The translations under genes and the position numbers were made by a program. Under the pieces are notes generated by a model that was given only the letters and a program-made list of their open reading frames with translations, was not told the DNA's origin and ran no database searches. Of a stretch of 64,000 bases of DNA, positions 22,217 to 59,000 are shown one piece after another (positions within the stretch are counted from its first letter, which is position 1; every line of letters starts with the position of its first letter). Location: NCBI GenBank assembly GCA_034687125.1, contig JAQGBZ010000016.1:1-64000 (forward strand). The letters are read 5' to 3'. Origin of the DNA: Neelides folsomi. Its lineage: Eukaryota; Arthropoda; Collembola; Neelipleona; Neelidae.

Positions 22217-23030
22217 ATGGACGGCCCTTGGGAGCTCGAGGATTTTTTCAGTGAACTCAATGACGATCCGCTCCTCCCGCTCTTTGAAGACATTCCCCCA
22301 TTCTACCCTGAAATACCCGACGACTTCAATACGCTTCTACAAAGTAAGCAATCACATAGAATACTTAGTTTACCAAGAAGAATCAAATAACGTTTAAATC
22401 AACAAGTTTTCCTTTATTAGAAAATAAGATACAAATATCAGCTCAATAAATATTCTACCAAATATAGCATATTAAAAATTTATTTGTAATATTTAAATGT
22501 TAGGAAAGTCCGTTATAATTATAAATAAATATAAAATATGAAACCGAATTTTATAGCGAGGAATGTGATATTTTAAATTGACAGATGAAGAGGAGGATTG
22601 GTGGGGAGATTTGGGGAACTTGTCAGGGACTTCGGGGCCATCGGTTAAGGAAGAACCCGTTATCCGAAGACGCGGTGGCAGGAAGAAAAAACATCCTGAG
22701 GGTCCCTTGAAGTGTGCCGAGTGCGGGAAGGAACATGTCAAGGCGAGTCATTTGAAAGCCCACGAGCGACGACATCGCGGAGAGAAGAATTTCATCTGCA
22801 AGTGGGTCGACTGCGGGTCATCGTTTTTCCGCTCCGACGAACTCAACCGACATCGGAGATCCCACACAGGGGAAAAGCCCTACGCTTGTCCAGCCTGCCC
22901 TAAACGCTTCACCCGTTCCGACCACCTTGCCAAACACAGAAAAGTCCACGAGCGAGGGAGGAATCCCCAATTGCCTCCAATCCCCCCCGGCCCAGGACCA
23001 AAGCGGGGAAGACCACCGAAGCACAAATAG
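22217..23030 (+). CDS. KLF/Sp-like three-zinc-finger transcription factor
   Basis: Two exons, 22217-22343 and 22585-23030; 190 residues. The N-terminus ([14 protein letters not shown]) is acidic with hydrophobics, like an activation domain; a VKEEP sumoylation-type motif follows. Three C-terminal C2H2 fingers match the Kruppel-like layout: first finger ending [10 protein letters not shown], second with [16 protein letters not shown], linker HTGEKPY, third with [15 protein letters not shown]. These predict binding to GC/CACCC boxes in the nucleus. The first finger has Cys-x2-Cys spacing, where KLF and Sp fingers normally have Cys-x4-Cys. The basic tail [11 protein letters not shown] includes an AT-hook-like GRP core. 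Small for the family; exact subfamily not assigned. Confidence 0.85.
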
Positions 23031-24507: not shown

Positions 24508-26100
24508 ATGAGGCGCCAGGAAGAGTACATAGCACGAGTCAGAGACGATCACGTCGGACGTGGGATCGCGTCTTTTCGACCGAATTTCAAAGCCCAAGCC
24601 TGCAGGATGGACTTGGTGGGTGAGGACGACGAGATCCAGGAGATTCCGGTGCCACCGAAGAGTTTCGAACTCATTGACCTGGATGACTCGGTGGAGGAGG
24701 AGGAAAGACCCGCCATGGCACACAAGGCGCCCGCCAACACCAACACTCCTTCTGAAAAGGAGATCAACGTGGGGATCTTCGCCGAGCTCACTGATAATGA
24801 AGACGACTACGAAGGAGAAGAAGAGATTTATGAGATTGTCGAACTTGATTGCTCTGATGAGCCGCTGTCAGCGGCTCAGCGCAATTCACATATTGTAAGT
24901 CAATTATACAATTGAATGTCCACATATTATAAAACATTTCATTTAACAATTACAATTATTATGACTTTTTATTCAATAGAATTTTTATTAATTTTATGTC
25001 TTTTATTTTTAATTCAATTCAATTTATTTCTAATAGGCCAAGAAAAGCTCATGGGTCAAAATGCGAGCGAATCTTGATAAATGGACTTCTAACAAAATTG
25101 CTCAAAAGAAAATTGTTAAGGGAGTTGGGCCTCAGGCCAGGCAGACGCTGACTCTCGGAGCCAGAAATGTGCAAATTCCGCTCCAGACATTCCGACCTGT
25201 CCGACCTGCCGGGATAGTACCGATTCAAGCGGCGATTCCTCTCCAGCAACCAAACCCGCAGCGACCTATTATCTTGAGACAGACAAGAGCTCCACCACCG
25301 AGACCATTTATCACCACAGCGACGACTTATTCTCCAATGACACAGCCGATTGCATCAACAATGCGTAATTTTCGTCATTTAACTAACAATTTAGAAAATT
25401 ATAATTTTCATATTCATTGATTCATTTAAATAAATGATTAAATTAATTGTAATTGATTTTTAATAGATTCTCAGGTGAATCAAGGAATACCGCTAATTTA
25501 CGATCCATCCAGCTGTGTTTTTATTATGAATTCGAGCAATTCGAATAACATGATTGGTAATTTTTAAAATTCTCTTCCGAATAACAATAAATAACAAATA
25601 ACGATGAATTGAGCGCTGATTTATTTTAATTTAACAGGAGGACAGACGTATACTCAAGCTGCTCCACGCCAGCCCACAACAACTCCTTCGATTCTTCGAG
25701 GTTCTTCTAACATGACTGTCCGCTATGGTTCGCGACCAACCATTTCGATTGCATCTCCGGTGTCTGTTGTCCGTGGCTTCACACCCATTCCTATGATAGC
25801 TCGACCAGGACAGTCTCCAAATATGATTCCTTTGCAACAGAGTACAAACAGTTTTATAACAGCTATTGGTACTATCGCAAATTATAAGAATTTTTCGCTC
25901 ATCTTTAATTTGCTCATTTTTTTTTAAATTTTTTAATCATTACAGTTTTAAGTCCCATAAGTTTTTAAAAATAATTTTGATTCCATAGGTCCACTTCGAA
26001 TTATTTCACAATCGCGCGACGTCGTGTCTGGTCTCAACAGAGTCACAGCTCCTACGTTTTCCGTGGTGACCCCGCTTGTCAACCCATCAGTTGTGCCGCC

Positions 26101-26140
<40 letters not shown>

Positions 26141-29100
26141 ACCACGGGTTTCCATATTAGTGAGGCCGTGCGAAATCGGTTCCCACAAATTACTGCACAG
26201 TTGCCCCCCATGCCTAGGACGACGACGTCAACTCCGCCTGGATTCGGACGCCCCCGTACTCCAAATCCATTGGCCACAGCACCAGCTCTAGCTCCAGCAC
26301 CAGCAGTCCCAACTGTGTCAACGATTGGAGTAGCTCCAGAAGAGAAGGAAAGCGAAGTTTCCAAAACTTTCCCATCTCTCGTGGTGGTTGTTCGGACTGT
26401 TCTTGAGAAAAAGAAGAATGAAGCAGGCGGACGGGCTGAGTTGGATTCGCGGGTCAAATCCTTGTTGGTCCATACGCCGCAAAAGTTTACTGAATATCTT
26501 CTTCAACGTGGGCTGATCCGATTGGAACAATTGTGTAACGATCATTTCAACCCTGATCGAACCCCTGTAAGCTTTAAATTGGGAATGGCAACTGACGAGA
26601 CTTCAAGGAAGGACTTGCACACTGGTGGCTACCTTTGGGTGTCTGATTGCTGTCCAGAGAAACACATTTCAATTTTTAATGGTTCTATTTTTGAATCTTC
26701 TAACTATCCACCCAACGTGCTTCTCAAGATCATGTACCATTGGTCTTGCCAAACCTCATCTTCCAATGTGGTCCAATGGGTCAAAGTAACTTCATATTAT
26801 TTGAAGAATTTTTACGCACTCTTAAGGTCTGTTTGCATCTCGGCCTTGCACGACATCGGCCCACTTTTGGGAGGGAATGGGGCCAACGTGGAAGTTGGGA
26901 TTTTGACTCTTGGAACTTCGTCAGCCACATCGGTATTCAATTGTTAGATCATTTAATTTAAATCAATGAATTTATTTAATTTTGAATTTCATTAATTTTC
27001 TCAGACGATTGGAAAAACTAAAATTGAAATCTTTGGTGTTTTGGACATTGCGAAAAAATACATTCGTTTGAGAGTGATTAATCCTGCAAATTCAACTCCT
27101 GTAAGTTTTAATATTTTTACTAATAATGATCGGTTAATAGTGTTTAATATTAACCTTTAATTTCTGTTATGTTTATTCAAACTGTTGAATTTAACGATGT
27201 GTTGAAGGGTCAAATAGTGCTACCAAGAGTAAATCAAATCATTATGAGTCTTAATCGTTGGGTTGATAAAGACTCCAAGCTTTTCATCGATACATCTGTC
27301 GACAAAAAATTGTTGTTCGAGGCTGGATTTAAGAATATTGAGATAGCAAATACTCTTTCTGGTAACAACAACGTCATGAATTATCTCAAGACGGTTCTAC
27401 CCAAGATGTTCCAATCAACTTTATATGCTCTCTCGCGGCCTCTCATCCAGCAGTTCCTTGACGAGTTGTCATGGAGGGAGATGTTTGGACAATCAGCCGT
27501 CAAAACCTTTGATACCATTTTGGATCACCTCGTTCGTATCACTAAAGTTGATATAGGTAATGTCCATATTTTTATTTTAATTATATATTTTATTTCGAAA
27601 AATGTAAATTACTAGTTATTAAAATTACTAGTTAATTGCTTAAAATAATACATTGATAATTTTACTATCCTAATCGAACATTTGAATACCTAGGCGAGAA
27701 TTTGCTGACGCGATTGAATAAAATCAGTGTGAATCCATGGAATGATTGGAGGTACACTCGGGACATTGATTCACTCCCGGATTCAATCACTGGACCATCA
27801 TTGGCAGAATATTTACCTTCTCCAAGTTCTGTATCAAGTCCTGTACCAAAAGGTCCTGGAAGCACGGACTCTGGAAAGAAACGTCCTCGTGAGGACGATG
27901 AAATTGATCTAATTGGCCATTATGCTGCCAATCCACCGACGGTCTACCTCGACACGTATTACTATTGTTGTGTCATTTCTCAGAATCCACCTGATGTGCG
28001 GTCGGAGTTCCCCGTCAATTTAAAATGTCCGCTTTGCTCAAAGAGCATTTTGGCAACTAATGAAGTCGTCCCGCACATTTTGGCTCATGTTAAAAGCTTA
28101 GGGCGTATGTCGACAATCAAAGACGTCTGTGACTGCTGTTTGAAGGACTTTCAATCACCACAAACCCTCTCAATCCATGTCAATGAGGTTAGAAAATTTC
28201 ATTAAATATTAATTGATCTAATTGTTAATATTTCATTTTAAAATCTTAAATTTGTAATTATGACTAATTAATACTTTGTAACTATTGTAGGTTCATAGCA
28301 TGATCAATACTAAATACCTATGCAAAATCTGTAACTCAGTCTTTCGGACGGAGAAGAATTTAATTCTTCATATGTGGGACACTCACAAGGCCAAAGAGGC
28401 TCCGTACAAATGTGAAGTTTGCGACTTTCGGACTTCCTTCCACATCCACGGTGTGGAACATTACAAAAAGGAACACGCTGGAATTGATGGAATTCTTTGT
28501 CCAATATGCTTTAAGTTTTTGCCGATCAAAAGTGTTACTTGTCTCACCAACCTGGTCTCACATTTCCAGGTAATATTTGACCATTCATTTGAACAAATTA
28601 TTTAAATATAGGTTTAAGTTGAGTTAAATATGTTTACTGAACCTTTACTTTTATTCATAGGTGCACATGATGAAGAAGGGGAGATCATGTAAGAAATGTG
28701 TTTTAAGCTTCCATGGCGAAGCGGAACTTCGAACTCATTTGGCTGAGGATCACCATACGGTCCCTCATGGGAAGTTCCTTATTAAAGAAGGAGAGTCGAG
28801 AGTTTTTATGGCTCTGCCTCCGATGAAGCCTGGCGACATAGTTCATCCACAATCACCTAAAAAGTCCAAGCAAAACCCGCCGGTTCAACAGACCATCAAA
28901 GTGGCCACGGTGTCGCGAGCCGGAGTGGATCTTTATTCGATTATCAAGGAAAACGTGACGATCATGGCGGGCCCAGGCGTTCTTTGTAAAGAATGTAAGC
29001 TGGATGTGAAGAACGAAGAACATTTTCCTGGACAACTTACTTGCATTTCCTGCCGATTCATGACGTCTTGCAAACGGTCGATGGTGAAACATCAAATGGA

Positions 29101-29409
29101 TACTCATCCAAAGAATAAAAAGAAGAAGAAAAGACCTGCGATGTCGTGCAAGCAAACGCATAGGAACCATGGGATGTTGAACTGCAAATGCTTACGATAC
29201 AAAACAAGAAGCATGAAAACAATGCGTAAGTTAATCTTCAATAAATTAATCATTAATGTAAAACTATTAATATATTTCGAGAAAAAATTAATATGTAACA
29301 TTCTATGACTAATTATCTTCTGCTTTGGTTAAAATTAATTGACATTTTTTTGTTTCTAGTCATACACTTGACTAAATGTGAGAATAAAACTATTTTCATT
29401 ACTGAATGA
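24508..29409 (+). CDS. ISXO2-like transposase domain fused to POGZ/ZNF280-like zinc fingers
   Basis: Eleven exons in phase: 24508-24894, 25037-25364, 25467-25556, 25638-25868, 25989-26932, 27005-27100, 27208-27556, 27694-28187, 28291-28569, 28661-29225, 29360-29409; 1270 residues. Residues 1-500 are disordered: acidic start (LTDNEDDYEGEEEIYEI), then Pro/Gln/Thr-rich with a 13-Gln run at about 383-396. About 509-800 matches the ISXO2/IS1595 (Merlin-type) transposase layout: KFTEYLLQRGLIRLEQLC, ISIFNGSIFESS, FYALLRSVCISAL, LLGGNGANVEV, IEIFGVLDIAKKYIRLRV, KLFIDTS, FLDELSWREMFG. The first catalytic Asp (VEID-type) is Gly here and the third acidic residue is not visible. From about 905 on, C2H2-type fingers follow in a POGZ/ZNF280-like order (CPLCSKSI, CKICNSVF, CEVCDFRT, CPICFKFL, CKKCVLSF, CKECKLDV, CISCRFMT, CKCLRYKT). 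Inferred nuclear DNA- or chromatin-binding protein. The acceptor at 27208 is the weakest junction. Confidence 0.8.
26102..26140 (+). repeat. CAA trinucleotide repeat (13 Gln codons)
   Basis: Thirteen pure CAA codons in exon 5 of the transposase-zinc-finger gene, flanked by Pro/Val-rich and Thr-rich sequence. Confidence 0.9.
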
Positions 29410-31190: not shown

Positions 31191-34100
31191 TTAAGGGCGG
31201 GGACGAGGGCGGGAAAACCCCCTAGTTCCGTCAGGCCCAAGCGGCTGCCGGACCACAATGACTCGCGCTCCGCTTTCGTCCACGCTCGCTTTCGATAGAC
31301 GATTGAGGAGACGCTCCGGCCGTTGACTCTCCCTGACAACCAAAATTAATTAATTAATTATCAAAATATAGTAAGATGAATTAATTGTATTATGTATATC
31401 ATATCAAAAATAAATATATATCATTGTGAATAAATTATTACCCGAGCTTGACAACGGAGCAGGCCGAGGATTTCCCGTTTCTCGGGTTCTGGAGAATCAC
31501 GAATTCAACTTCATCTCCAGGATTGAGATGAAGGTGGTCCTTAACTTCTGACATATGGAAAAACAATTTCTTGCCATCTTCCAACTCGTACGAAAGGAAC
31601 CCGTATTGTCCTACACAATCAAACCATTAAAATCCCTCATTCCAATCATTAAATAAATAATTACTATTAGGACGTGAGTTTATTTAAGAAATTGAAATTA
31701 CCTTTAACAGCCTCCACAGTGGCTCGTAGCTTTTTTCTTATAGCTCGTATGTTGACGGGCTTTCGGGAGGCGTCGAGTTGAAAGTCGACGAGTTCGCCAT
31801 TGACAAGGATCTCCTTCTTGTTGAGCAGAGAAATAATGCCGAAAGGGTAAGGCGTCCCTTCGCTGTCTTCAATAAGGCCACTATACTCGGTCTGGTCGGG
31901 GTTGGCTCCACGCAGGGGACGTGTCACCACTCCGTTGATCACTTCAGGGAAAACGGCAGCTCGCCCGATGGTCCCGCGAGGAAGGGGCTTGACCATGTCG
32001 GCCGCCCGCTTTCCGCTCACGCTTCCCTTCCGACTCACCACGTACTCAACTTCTTGTCCAACCTCCAACCCACCAAAATCTCCCACAAGGCAACTGAATA
32101 AAACAATAAAAGTCAAATAGAAAAATCATAATTTCTCCAATTAAAACTCAAAATTAAAATAAACCTTACCTTGAATGAAAGAAAATTTCCCCATCTTGAG
32201 CCATGGTTTCGATGAATCCGAAGCCATCTTTGAGGGCGGCGATGAATCCCTTCATGACAAATCTTGCCTGAGGAGTTGTTGGGGCGGAATGTCGGTCGTC
32301 CTCCTCCTCCTCTTCTTCTTCTTCTTCTTCCTCCTCTTCGGAGGATTCCAATGGATCTAAAACTTCCTTCATTCGACTCGGGAGATCTTCTGCGACGAGG
32401 CCACATGGCTCCGGATCGTCGGCATCGTCGGCTCGGATATTCGCCGCGATCATCTCACGATTACGTCGGATTTGATGAATGTCGAATTTGACCTACAAAA
32501 ATTTAAATAATTGATTCATCTTGAACAGTATTATTATTTTTAATATTTGTATACACATGGAATATTAATATATACATGGAATTAATTAACTATTTTATAA
32601 ATCAATTAACTACAGAATGATTAGAGATTCGTGAAATACTTCGATTTTAACTTTTCACTATTCCATCAACACCCGGCAAGATTTTTGGGTTTCCACCCAT
32701 ATTTAACAAAAATTTTACTTTAAAAGTATATAATGTAAAATATTGTTAAGATAAGAACAAAAATTTTGGCCGAAAACGTTGATTATAATCGTTTCACGAA
32801 TCTCTGTTCACCCCCTGTATTTCATAAATTAATTATAAACCTTTGTTCCAATCCTGATGTTCCTAAGGTTTTTACAGTCCTTCCAATGAAAGAGTATCGT
32901 CTCCTCCTCTCCCCACCCGGGAGAAGAGTAGGCGAGGAGTCCGGGCTCAGATCCTTCAGGAGGAGCTGAGGAGGGTTCATGGAGACCTTGGATCAGGCGA
33001 TCCGTGACCGTCTGTGGGAGTCCGAGGTTTGTGAGGGAAGGAAGGAGGCCAGCGAGGGCTTCTTCAGACACCCATGTGGAGGACGGCTCCCGAACCACCC
33101 GTCCGAACACTCCGATCCGAACAGGAACTTCAAACTGAACCTTCCCAGGGCTAAGGTACTTGATACGAATCGCCGAGTTGCGAACTGGACTCGTAGAATC
33201 CTTCAAAAACAAATTAAAATCTCAACTAATGATCAATTGATAAAATTGTTGAATTATTGAATAGATAATCTTACGGGCACGATGGTGAATTGGACGTCGT
33301 CGCCAGCCTTGGGATTTCTATTCGAATCAAGAATCTCCGAAGTTCGAAAATACATTTTTGTATCCCGCTCGGCACATGTGATGAACCCAGTGGTCCCCTA
33401 AAAATCATTTCCATTAAATTCTAATTCAATATTTGGATCCCTATCCGGAATATTAATTGTGAAATATAAAGAAATCCACCTTGACACTCGAAATGACTCC
33501 TTCTTCTCTTCGTTCGCCAGAGACGGTGAAAGATTCCTCAAGGAATCGAATGTTGGTGGCTCGTTGGGAGCGATCCCTTCGATCCACGGCGAGTCTGAAC
33601 TGGACCCAATCTCCATGGCGGAGTGTGAAAGACCCTCCTTGGTCCTTTTCCCCAAAGAGAACTTCCAATTCTTGGCGATCCGGCCCACGATAACGAAGTC
33701 GCCCTTCCTTGCCCTCTGCCCTAGGAGTGGGACCAACAGGGACTGAAGGCCCGCTCTTATCGATCGGCTTCAGCACTTGGCCTTTCAACGTATCAGTCCC
33801 TACGTCCTCGAAGACGACTGTGCCAGGGGGGAGTTTTGTGATGGCGGAAGCCACTTCCTTCCCATTCCTTGTCAGGATATTAAATTCAACATTGTCTCCC
33901 ACGACGACCCCGTCTGATGGCCGAGTTTCGCTGAAGTGAAAGAAAATCTCCTTCGCTACGTCGGCCCTCTCGATGAACCCAAACGCATCCTTAATGTTGG
34001 ATACGAGTCCTTTGTATCTCACAGGGGCGGCGGGGTTCTCCAGTCTAACGTATCGGGCCGTCAAATTCCCGCTCCTACTGGCAAACCCACATTTCAAAGT

Positions 34101-47700: not shown

Positions 47701-50700
47701 ATTAATCAGTTGGAGTTAGAACTAAAAGGTATTAATTAATAAAATTAGCCAATACCAAGGAATGTGTATAGATGGGATAAAACCCGCGCTGGCAATACTT
47801 CAACGCGGCCAACTTCCCTCACGGTTTGAACGTGAACGTCGGCGTTCTTTAACTTCTCCTGTATCTCGGCATCTTCGGCTAAAACTACGACTTGTACCAC
47901 AACGTCCGGTTTTTTCTCGGAACAAAGACGCCGGTTAAGAGGGTCAAGCTCGCCCGGAGCTAAGAAATCCTGACAAAATGTCACATAAAGGTACTTTTCT
48001 ACCGTAAATTGTAAATTGAATATCCATCAGAACTTTAAAAATCACGATCTTTATTAAATAGTAATATATATTATTAATAATTAAATAATATTATTAATTT
48101 AACAATTAATTTATTTAATATTAAAAGTTGATTTGGAAGAAGCGAGAGTCGAAATTGTCTTCAACCTCATCCTCATATGCTATCAAGTGAAGTTGCCACT
48201 GCTCAGAATCGGACAAGATATATTAAAACTACGGCAAATGCTTCGGTATTAATTCTTTACTTATTGTTAATACAATTTTCATAAATTCGACCAAAACTTG
48301 TCTAGATTATTTATCTAATTAAATTCATTCATTAAAGGTTCGGCATTTGGCACAGTATTTGGGAATGCGACTGACATTGGACGAACAGAGTGAGGCGAGT
48401 TTGCCCCTCTACGATTGCACAATTTTTGCAAATGCCACTGGAGGAGAATTGACAACCGTACAACCGGACCAAACATTATCGCAAGTATGTGGAAAGTACT
48501 GGCCATTTAACAAACCTCTGGAGATGTATTATTCGTGGGAGAAGATTTGAATATAATAATTGAATACCTTGTGAACAAACTGAAGAATAGATGATAGGAA
48601 TTGTATGAATGAAAATAGTTTAGAGAATCTATCTTAATAAAATTCCAGTGTATGTGTGTCAGGTCGGCCCTACAGCTCTCACTACTCTTATTAGCCATTT
48701 GAAACCTAGACTAAAAAATCCGCCTCTATCCCGTGTTAAAAAAGACAGCTCGGTTTTTGATAAAAATGTTTCGTTGATTAATTAACGCCAAATAACCAAA
48801 TAATTAATCAAGTTTCCCGCAAATAAATTCAACGCTTCACAATTTCAAAATTTAAAATTGACCAAAACAATTCTCAATTTAAATTTATTCACAGAGAAAC
48901 GCCTTTTACAACGTTTCTTTTCCCATTGCAAAAAATTCTCTCTTGGCCTTTTTGGTTATTCGGCGTTAGATCAGTAGCGGATTTGCAGATATTACAGATA
49001 CTTTAATTTGGTTAATTATTAAATAGTTACCTAATCTTAAATATCCAATCTCTGTACAAAACTGTATTTATTATTGTTAAGAATCAATTATTAAAATGCT
49101 CCGATAAAAAGTTAATTATTATCATAGGAAATTAAATAAAACTCTATTATTTTATCCAACTACAGGCGTAAGACAGAAATACAACTCCCGAGAAATCATC
49201 CGAATACTTAGGTATCTTGTGTGATCAGGTACATTAGGTACTCTTTTTTAATATTTGACCTTATCCATATTTCCAGAATTAAGCCTAATGTCAAACGATA
49301 GAATGTTAATTAACTCTCTGAGGCATTTACAATAAATAAACTAATCAAAAAACTTCATCTACATTTTTTTCTTCGTTTGCTCGTCCTTTAACACATTTCC
49401 GAATAATTTTTACTTAAATGTTTCTTAATTGATCAATAAGGGCTTACAAACCTCATGCTGTAATCACTATGCTGTCATTTGTTTAACCCCTTAGGATTAA
49501 AGGAGAACCGTGGATGGTTTCTTCATTGACAATGAGAAATAATGTAAATTTACCTCTTGTAAAAGCATAGCTAGGATGAACAAGCTTTGGGCCCACAAGA
49601 ACGGCGTCCTTCCCAATGGACATCTTGTCTGGGATCCTGGACGTGCATATTCCTCATTGACCCTTTCCGGAGGAACCGCATAGAATTCTGGAATGAGCGG
49701 AAGTCCTTCTTCATCCTTCACAATGACCCTGGCCAGAGCTGCTGAGTATTTCCGACTGGCTTCTTCGTCCGCCCTAAAAGCCGCATCGATGAGGGAGTAG
49801 CAGTAAAAGAGCGGCCATTCGCATTCAATTCCTTCGAAAATCCTCAACTCCCACGGTTCGTAATAAAGACGTGTGGGATCCTCTCGCGACGTTTTGTATC
49901 CATCCCGCAAGAAACGCTTGAATCCGAATTTGCCTTCCAGTTTCTCAGAAATGGTCGAGCGGGTAATGGCAATGAGTCCGGCATCATCAACAGCAAAGGC
50001 TGGGAAACTTATGACCGACAATAACCCGCTGTCAACCTTAAATAGGAGTTATGAAGATTATTTAAGTATTAAGTATTAATTCAAATAATTTAAAACAATC
50101 AAATTTCTAACTCTTACAATTATACTTAAAGTTAGAGCATATTTAAATCAATAGTTAAAAAATATAGAATCATGTCTACTTCTTTTGAGTTTGATTCTCT
50201 TGGCAAGATCGAATGGAGCACCGCCCTACATTTTTCCGCTTCGTCGGCCAAAATGTGAATGACGGACGCAGGGCCTCCACGAGCTCCAAAAAGGTCAAGT
50301 TCGTTCATGGCTTCCAAAGCTGCTTTTGCCGTTCCAATGGATGTTGCGTTGAGCTCTGGCAGACCATGATTCCCTTTGTCTCCTCTCTCCCACATTCCGT
50401 AATCCTGAAAAAAATGTATGAATAACACATTGTAATTTATTAACATTCCAAAATGACTAGAATTGTCGATTATTGTAATTATTGAAAATATTTATACTGT
50501 AGAAGAGAAACAAATGAAGGTTGACTTACGGGAATGCAATAAGCGACTTCGATGTAAAAAACGAGATTCTGAACAAAGGCGACCTCGTCGAGGTCAAAGA
50601 CGATTTGCAGCCCTGCAGCGGTGAGTTGAGCGAGGATGAGGAGAAAAAGCGAAACAGCGTCGATTTGCAAATGCCCCCATTCGGAGTCTCCCACCACGGC

Positions 50701-56092: not shown

Positions 56093-59000
56093 TCAATAGC
56101 CTTTTGAAAGCTGAATCATAGCTTCGATAGCAGCTTGGCTCTCATCGTCGAAAGTGGAATCCATTATTTCATCCTCCTGACTCTCTTCATACATTTCCTC
56201 CGAATCGGCCTCTCGTGACCCCAAGTTCAATTCCAGGATCCGAAGATCTTCCTCAAACTGGGCAATCATTTCCTCAGCAAGCAATACGATTTTCTCTGCC
56301 TTCTCTGTGAAAATGCTATTTTCGCTATTGTAAGTCTTTGCATTGAGGTGGAGAAGATGAATGTCGGCCATGAAGTCATTCCTTCCCGTATATTTCCCAG
56401 CTACAATAAATCATTTAAAATTGATGAATTTAAAAAACTGTAAGAAATTAGCTCAAAATATTCATTTAATTTGATAAAATAGTAAATTCTATTGTCAATC
56501 ACTCACTATCCACTTTCTTGGTGATGAGTTCAAAGTCAATGGGAGAATGAATCACGTCATAGTAGTCGTTGACTTTCTTCTTGGACACTGGTTTCAGGAA
56601 TGGATAAGCCTCTGGCATGGTTTTGAGATGATTGAGTATTGATCGGAGGATATGGGCCAAAGCCTGTTGATCTCCGTCTAACATTGGGTTGATCATCTTC
56701 TCCAACTTCTCAACTTTCTCGTTGTCCTCCTCCAGCCTCGATTTGGCAACTTCCAACATACGCCCAGCCACGTCCGTAAGGAAATGTTTAGGACCTTTAA
56801 ATTGGTAAATATTACAATTAAAATAAAACTTATATAGCCTCATAACCATAATAATAATAATAATAATTATATATATTAATTAATAATATTAGTATAATAA
56901 TTTAAAAAATAATTCAATTTCCCGACTCACCATTGAAAATGGCTGAATTTTCCACAATGAGTAAAACGTCAGCAAGGAAATCATTCCTTGTTGAATATTT
57001 CTTGTCTCTCACTTTATCCCTGATAGTTTGGAGATCCATTGGACGTTGGATTAGGTTATGGTAATTGGGAACAAGGCGTGGGTTGACGGGAAATAGGAAA
57101 TGAGCCACATCGGGGAGTTTCTTCAATTCAGACACGACCGAGTCGAGGATTCCTTCCAGCACAACGTATGGATCCACTCTGGCCCGATTAACTTTCCCCT
57201 TCTTCACCAAATAATCGGAGTCGAAGGGGGCGGGGAATGGACGTTTGGCTCGGCGCTTTCCTCCCATAGCGTCTTTGGGGACTTTAAGGAGGAGAGATCG
57301 ACGTTTGATCTCGTCAGCCTGTTTGAACAATTTCCCAGATAGCTGAACCTTCGTTCCATCAACTTTCACCAATTCCTCGTCATCGGTGATCATCGCTCTT
57401 TCGGCTTCTTCTTCTTGTTCCTCCGTCATTGCCACAGGGAGGGGAGGGACGGGAGAGTTAGCACTTTGATAAAGGGGACAAGCCTTGTTGGTCCTCATGT
57501 GTCCTACTTGCCCACATGCTCCGCACTTCATCTTCAAGTCTGGTTTGCTCTTCACTTTCTTTGTCTTCTTTGGGGTTCGATGGCCTTCCTTCTCTTGGTT
57601 ACGTTTGATCCGTCGAAGTTGTTCTTGAATTCGTCGTTTTTCTTTCTTCATTTCCTCTTTCAATGAGTCGTCGAGGAGGGCGAATTGACGAATGAAATTC
57701 TCATCCTTGGTGGTTCGAATCCGCATGTAAATGTCAATGATCGAAGGTTTACGGACGATTTCTGTCCGAGTGAATTCTTTACCTTCGCTCGACTTGAACT
57801 TACGATGAATCATTAAAACACGACCTTGTGAAATATAAAATATTAATGAATTAAAATTAAATTTCTATCAACCATCGACTTTAATTTAGTTCAAAATTGA
57901 TTAAATTATATTGAAATTGAATATTTTCCTCACCAGGATGATTTTCCAACCCACAGAGAGTTTTGTGATCTTCTTGCCTTTTCCCTTTAGCTCCCTTTTC
58001 TTCTTTTTCTTTTCCCTCTCCCATGATCATTTTTTGAAGTTCTCTTCGCTCTTCTTCTTCCTTCTCGTCCACAAGCTGAAATCCAAAACATTAAAAACTT
58101 ACAATTCAAACTTTTAATTTTCAATCACTTCAATTTGATGTGAAGGAAATTGATTTTAATGACCTGTGAGGAAGTTTTCTTATTTGACAACATGTTCTCA
58201 ATGTTCTTTCCCATTTCTTCAATGTCAGAGAGTTCTTCCTCTGAGGACTCGCCCTCGTCCGTTGACAAAACTTCAGAAGAGGCCAAAACCCGATTTTGAA
58301 GTTCGAAAATTCTTTGGCATTCCTCTTTGTATCGCTCTTGATGTTCAGCAACGGAAAATCGATTACCGCGAGAAAACTTGGTCATTCCCTTTTCTCCCGC
58401 TTTGGCTTTTTCTGTCGACAGCGTTCGAACTACGTCAATCACTTCCCATCGACTCAGCTTCTTTATCTAAAAAAAATAATTAATTTATAATTAAATACAA
58501 TATTTAAAATCTTTACTTATTTAATCAATATGTAATTTAGTTTAATTTTGAAAATGAATTGTTTACTTCATCTTCAGGAACTCCGAATTTTCTCAAGAGA
58601 GCTTTCGCATTATTTAACGAAAGCCTTCTCAAATCAGCGTCCGTTCCAGTGACAATTCTTTTTGGTTGAGCTTCCTGTTCCTCCTTGCTCGTTTGCGGTT
58701 TGTTGGGGACTCGAATGTAGGAAAATCCCTCTCCGCACCCAGTGGGATCGGCAATTCCCGTGAGTTGAAGTAAACATTTCCCCTTCATGGCTTGGATGTA
58801 AGCCCGTGTGGTGTTCCAAGGAGCAGTTTTGACCTCGTCTTCAATTTTCACTTCTTTGTCCTCTTCGTCGTCCTCCGCCGGAGCAAAAAGGAACTTTTCT
58901 CCATAGCCTGCGTCCTATGAAATTAAAAGATAATATAATATTTATATATCATTATAATATTTATAATATCATTATAATATTTAGATATTATAATTTATAA

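Follow-up and report, generated by a model that had tools for sequence, protein, structure and literature searches.

A POGZ/Row-family zinc-finger gene of the collembolan Neelides folsomi carrying a segment probably captured from a Merlin transposase

Introduction

POGZ is a vertebrate zinc-finger protein in which the fingers lie N-terminal to a pogo (Passer-derived) transposase with helix–turn–helix (HTH) and DDE_1 domains, a part whose recruitment is described as probably dating to the lobe-finned fish stage (PMC7386202). It has been reported as an HP1 partner that binds HP1-type proteins (PMC7465937, PMC7301966). Its fly counterpart is listed as Row (CG8092, Relative of woc; PMC10948934), a zinc-finger protein that is described as binding HP1 proteins and, together with Woc, as recruiting them to chromatin (PMC9078007). 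DNA-binding domains derived from transposable elements (TEs) are said to tend towards fusion with host regulatory domains (PMC12062965, citing Cosby et al.), and proteins in which DDE_Tnp_IS1595 is accompanied by further domains, for example WD40 in C. brenneri, have been listed as candidate chimeras (PMC8101967). Here we analyse a gene at positions 24508–29409 of the forward strand in a 64,000-nucleotide stretch of the Neelides folsomi genome (assembly GCA_034687125.1, contig JAQGBZ010000016.1, positions 1 to 64,000), hereafter the window. The gene encodes a predicted POGZ/Row-type chromatin protein in which a segment between the low-complexity N terminus and the zinc fingers probably represents an old capture from a Merlin (IS1595/ISXO2-like) transposase.

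Results

To compare the segment with Merlin transposases, we built profiles from the genome's own Merlin pieces, which were picked by PF12762 or by their likeness to one such piece (C582), and not by likeness to the candidate. A 12-row profile matched the N-terminal half of the segment with E = 2.2e-13 in a search of that one sequence. This half also ranked first against 611 real open reading frames (ORFs), one of which is the ORF that holds the segment, and 5000 shuffles; its own ORF aside, the best rival was a shuffle at 3.4e-5. The match persisted when C582 and a second piece, C45, were left out of the profile (E = 9.1e-11) and when the profile was cut to subsets of six or four rows (E = 1.4e-5 and 2.7e-6, still rank 1), and earlier profile builds gave an agreeing result. 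Alignment by hhalign paired the N-terminal half with Merlin at 94–95 %, and 0 of 300 shuffles did as well in each mode. The aligned stretch, residues 550–648, comprises a helical part followed by LGGNGANVEV, which stands opposite IGGNGLHIEIDES. By these sequence comparisons, residues ~550–648 are homologous to the N-terminal half of Merlin/IS1595 (ISXO2-like) transposases, the likeness reaching as far as the first RNase H strand.

Searches of the 75-Mb genome, in which PF12762 matches 18 places, linked the segment and the Merlin pieces in both directions. When the whole segment was used as a protein query, the only non-self matches were C582 (E = 0.13) and C45 (E = 4.5), both of which (2 of 2) directly precede PF12762 matches, and the N-terminal half alone returned the same two (E = 0.05 and 2.3). 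The reverse search with the C582 piece listed 20 rows, with this gene in row 15 (E = 0.045, 27 % identity). Twelve of the 20 rows lie at or beside PF12762 matches and seven lie elsewhere, five of these seven showing Merlin motifs in a reading that left out C206 and C380 at the matched stretch. An unrelated helical region that resembles Merlin transposases by chance would fit with two observations: neither PF12762 nor NCBIfam IS1595, both curated models, picks up the segment, and the genome searches gave weak pairwise E-values, from 0.05 to 4.5. The profile statistics, the leave-out tests and the reciprocal searches all argue against chance likeness, and we consider it close to refuted. NCBIfam as a whole gave no match for the N-terminal half of the candidate or for the C582 piece, and its IS1595 model matched another Merlin-type element of this genome, C406, at 59 bits, below the cut-off of 75. 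Among solved structures there were three matches to the segment, none of them meaningful (best E = 0.79), and none of 14 pattern matches to possible viral relatives of the Merlin N-terminal half was confirmed.

The segment differs from Merlin/IS1595 transposases in that its catalytic half is unrecognisable and element ends were not found around it (both described below), and in two features of the N-terminal half itself. The column of the first catalytic aspartate holds a glycine, with VEIDES replaced by VEVGIL, and the CxxC that lies further upstream in the C582 element is missing. The CxxC loss is a weaker point than the loss of the aspartate, because the N-terminal zinc domain described for IS1595 elements is, according to PMC8101967, lacking in nearly all Merlin elements.

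The last third of the protein places the gene among POGZ-type proteins. In a Pfam search of the protein, zf-POGZ (PF25429) matched residues 1174–1212 at 46.4 bits (cut-off 27), and in a scan of the 75-Mb genome only one of the four listed zf-POGZ matches exceeded the cut-off, namely this gene (53.3 bits). Finger-like spacing is found at residues 920–1098, ahead of this double finger; single C2H2 Pfam models all remained below their own cut-offs in this protein. A blastp comparison with an approximate human POGZ sequence, which is only as good as that reference, gave 28 % over 337 residues (E = 4e-30), the two sequences being collinear between the first finger and the double finger. The protein also contains two PxVxL strings, at residues 587 and 890, where shuffles average 0.53. 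Judged from its fingers, the gene belongs to the POGZ/Row finger-protein family. It shares with vertebrate POGZ the finger family, the zf-POGZ double finger and, going by this approximate comparison, possibly a collinear array. By contrast, vertebrate POGZ has the pogo HTH and DDE_1 domains behind its fingers, whereas here no DDE_1 or HTH_Tnp domain was among nine Pfam hits up to E 10, the protein terminates 58 residues past the double finger, and the Merlin-type segment stands before the fingers. To our knowledge, no Merlin-like segment is known in Drosophila Row.

One possible explanation is that the segment is an old, unnamed domain common to invertebrate POGZ/Row proteins. The gene would then be an ordinary orthologue and the capture would be ancient, perhaps predating the vertebrate pogo capture, which is compatible with a Merlin origin. 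Consistent with such a domain, the frame is open at 27 % identity to the nearest element found, this is the sole zf-POGZ gene over the cut-off in the genome, and POGZ has Row as its listed counterpart in fly (PMC10948934). Against it, none of the papers among the matches listed names a domain of this kind in Row or POGZ. We regard a shared old domain as a real possibility, if not the one we would expect.

A first-pass annotation, made from the letters of the window, had described a phase-consistent 11-exon gene with a POGZ-type finger array in its last third, and both descriptions held. The gene model has ten introns, all GT–AG, of 72–142 bp and 15–23 % GC (exons, 26–53 %), and a single frame of 1270 residues with consistent phases:

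Exon 1, 24508..24894 (+): acidic N terminus; reading frame and donor gtaagt.
Exon 2, 25037..25364 (+): proline/glutamine-rich; splice sites and phase.
Exon 3, 25467..25556 (+): splice sites and phase; coding score not best in frame.
Exon 4, 25638..25868 (+): splice sites and phase; coding score not best in frame.
Exon 5, 25989..26932 (+): polyglutamine/proline-rich part, then the putative Merlin-derived segment, unbroken; single open frame, coding score best in frame.
Merlin-like segment in exon 5, 26600..26896 (+): residues 550–648, helical part and GGxGxxVE linker; profile search, hhalign and reciprocal searches of the own genome.
Exon 6, 27005..27100 (+): candidate RNase H strands 2–3 (IFGVLD); splice sites and phase, homology not significant.
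Exon 7, 27208..27556 (+): candidate remainder of the RNase H half (FIDTS, LDELSWRE); frame and coding score, homology not significant.
Exon 8, 27694..28187 (+): linker, PTVYL (a PxVxL-type string) and first POGZ-type fingers.
Exon 9, 28291..28569 (+): fingers; C2H2 spacing, weak Pfam C2H2 matches below cut-off.
Exon 10, 28661..29225 (+): finger, linker and zf-POGZ double finger (28982–29098); PF25429.
Exon 11, 29360..29409 (+): end of the last finger-like stretch (LIHLTKC) and stop; phase and splice site.

The start codon is uncertain, with an ATG at 24508 or 24607, and the product of exon 2 is probably disordered. The exon 7 acceptor (tgtgttgaag/GG) is weak, lacking a pyrimidine tract. In the last finger-like stretch, the H..C of exon 11 completes, across the intron, the C..C of exon 10. 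We compared six frames by a codon-usage score whose training set, 1557 codons, came from seven further long ORFs in the window. The chosen frame ranked first of the six in exons 1, 2, 5, 6, 7, 8, 9 and 10; in exon 1, for instance, it scored 0.26, against −0.69 to 0.03 for the remaining five frames. The 313 codons of the segment, which span three exons, are free of stops. Base composition gives this a chance of 6e-9, a figure that overstates the surprise because the exon borders were picked to keep the frames open. Two separate genes meeting at intron 7 (137 bp) are unlikely, since exon 5 is one open frame that holds both the low-complexity and the transposase-like part, and exon 8 has no in-frame ATG ahead of the first finger.

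We also considered a decayed insertion: the Merlin segment would be removed by splicing or belong to a separate pseudogene, and the POGZ-like protein would lack it. Merlin copies with in-frame stops do occur elsewhere in this genome (4 of 18 PF12762 matches and 7 of the 20 rows of the C582 search, some of them perhaps introns). In addition, exon 5 contains a donor-like GTAAGC at 26567 whose phase fits the acceptor of exon 6; a splice from 26567 to 27005 would drop most of the Merlin segment and could give an alternative form. An insertion in decay is hard to reconcile with 313 stop-free codons, with the in-frame coding bias of exons 5, 6 and 7 and with the exon-like GC content of exons 5 and 7. 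Moreover, a separate downstream gene would have to begin inside the fingers of exon 8. We consider this explanation improbable.

The first-pass annotation had further read the middle third as an ISXO2-like transposase, with PF12762 or an RNase H fold over residues 509–800. This layout stands for residues ~550–648, up to LGGNGANVE, which lie far above chance; IFGVLD, FIDTS and LDELSWRE are matched by shuffles. PF12762 gave no hit in the protein up to E 10, the gene is absent from the 18 genome matches of this model, and the homology that we detect lies upstream of the PF12762 part. For exons 6–7, hhalign comparison with Merlin was equalled by 99 of 300 shuffles in local mode and 11 of 300 in global mode. 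Semiglobal profile alignment was equalled by 61 to 629 of 2000 shuffles over nine settings, in two of which the reversed sequence scored higher. Four motif blocks placed in order did no better (351 of 5000 shuffles as good), and here too the reversed sequence scored higher. Taken singly, IFGVLD is the best-scoring place for the Merlin strand-2/3 block (594 of 5000 shuffles score as well) and FIDTS for the strand-4 block (2244 of 5000), while the block over LDELSWRE was equalled by 3996 of 5000. The second and third catalytic columns of the D-D-E gave no confident alignment, and a genome search with exon 7 found no relative apart from one match at E = 8.2. A PF12762 or RNase H identity of exons 6–7 is therefore not supported by the Pfam, profile, hhalign, semiglobal or motif-block tests. 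What remains of the proposed transposase of a different superfamily ahead of POGZ-type fingers is a Merlin N-terminal half within one gene model, its DDE part being undetected. The positions of IFGVLD and FIDTS at the strand-block sites are suggestive only, and exons 6–7 are probably a decayed catalytic half.

A narrower form of this capture is that only the N-terminal DNA-binding half was taken up, in which case exons 6–7 would be unrelated host sequence and the segment would act as a tethering domain for DNA binding or dimerisation. The profile scores drop to chance right past VEV, and adding the C-terminal part lowers the score (24.9 against 26.7 bits). Both results are consistent with partial capture, as is the reported readiness of TE-derived DNA-binding domains to fuse with host regulatory domains (PMC12062965). 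However, the strand-2/3 and strand-4 block sites fall in transposase order, albeit with scores that are not significant, and the homology extends to where the first RNase H strand begins. We find partial capture possible but rather doubtful.

Merlin-type elements with recognisable ends are present elsewhere in the genome. Merlin elements are described as having GG ends and target duplications of 8–9 bp (PMC8101967). C406 (L034 545-2595, G000:C406) carries GG..CC ends on inverted repeats of 154 nt (99 %), together with a target duplication of 9 bp, AATTTCCTG; in-frame stops interrupt its frame within the stretch matched by the C582 search. C582 (L030 1006-2752, G000:C582) likewise has GG..CC ends, and its inverted-repeat arms pair without mismatch along 43 and 104 nt. 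Arms this intact suggest that it moved recently, though a look at its ends turned up no target duplication. We searched the window for the ends of C582 and C406, other Merlin families lying outside this search, and the 13-base repeat end common to the two elements gave 9 matches where 8.99 were expected, one of them inside exon 7. Only two inverted repeats were found in 25900–27750. The one tested, 18 nt long and bracketing exons 6–7 (26932–26949 / 27673–27690, 89 % complementary, GG..CC ends), is not a family of ends and was not accepted as transposon termini: elsewhere in the genome it had no match at 0 or 1 mismatch and 38 at two mismatches, where the reversed pattern had 18, a two-fold excess that we read as AT-rich background. 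Neither protein nor DNA searches of the genome turned up a further copy of the segment, the lack of a DNA match being no proof of rarity. The gene thus shows features of a domesticated fusion, namely an open frame, no second copy and no mobility signals found.

Several results weigh against capture from a Merlin transposase. Exons 3, 4 and 11 show no coding bias, the chosen frame not being the top one, and the donor-like site in exon 5 offers a form of the protein that lacks most of the segment. With the 4-row profile, one shuffle outscored the full-length protein, though not the segment alone, and the curated transposase models pass over the segment. Single-sequence structure models had a low predicted local distance difference test score (pLDDT) of 38.0 for the exon-5 part alone (26438–26932) and 43.8 for exon 7 alone, which was modelled as all helix and not alpha/beta; both models are too poor for a fold search, and structure prediction gave no backing to the annotated RNase H fold. 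Finally, the catalytic half went undetected by Pfam, profile, hhalign, semiglobal, motif-block and genome searches.

Four other coding regions of the window were noted. A zinc-finger exon at 22569–23030 (+), just upstream of the gene, has three fingers by eye and is presumably SP/KLF-like. At 31670–34100 (−) lie cold-shock domain exons of a CSDE1/Unr gene; their best solved match is fly Unr, in a comparison for which only short human pieces were available among solved structures. A weak glycosyl hydrolase 15 match at 49497–50048 (−; 26.2 bits, cut-off 22) is perhaps a phosphorylase kinase regulatory subunit. A bromodomain and a zf-CCHC_6 knuckle at 56914–57864 (−) are combined as in TAF1.

Discussion

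We favour a Merlin origin of the segment in this POGZ/Row-type protein. Its frame is open across three exons despite only 27 % identity to the nearest element found, and deep divergence together with an open frame would be the look of an old capture that has been kept. It looks like a separate transposase capture by the POGZ family, the vertebrate member having captured another.

In the mechanism that we propose, the protein would be made as one chain in which the Merlin segment no longer cuts DNA. The dead segment may serve instead as an extra surface for DNA binding, dimerisation or docking. The finger part may recruit partners of the HP1 type, in line with the reports on Row and POGZ, and the protein would bring chromatin regulators to sites partly set by the Merlin-derived segment. 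This proposal of a chromatin regulator with a dead Merlin segment draws on the reports that connect Row, Woc and POGZ with HP1 and on the trend of TE-derived domains towards host fusion. More tentatively, the POGZ/Row scaffold may have been joined to two unrelated transposase superfamilies in different lineages, with pogo behind the fingers in vertebrates and a whole, now dead, Merlin transposase before the fingers here, and the segment may have retained recognition of Merlin-derived DNA, guiding HP1-type chromatin regulation to it.

Fusions of transposase parts to host proteins are a known kind. SETMAR, KRABINER, POGK and the Merlin-containing chimeras resemble this gene in joining a transposase part to a host protein, and differ from it in that none with a POGZ-type finger protein was among the matches listed. 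Likewise, no Merlin–POGZ fusion in the literature was among the matches listed, which does not establish its absence from print. As far as its sequence indicates, a Merlin segment in a POGZ-type finger protein would be a new variation on this kind.

New chromatin factors are known to arise when regulatory proteins capture transposases. If the reading favoured here is true, the Merlin-derived segment joins the list of co-opted transposase modules. Repeated capture by one host family from different superfamilies would further suggest that POGZ-type proteins are predisposed to such events, for example by sitting on transposon chromatin.

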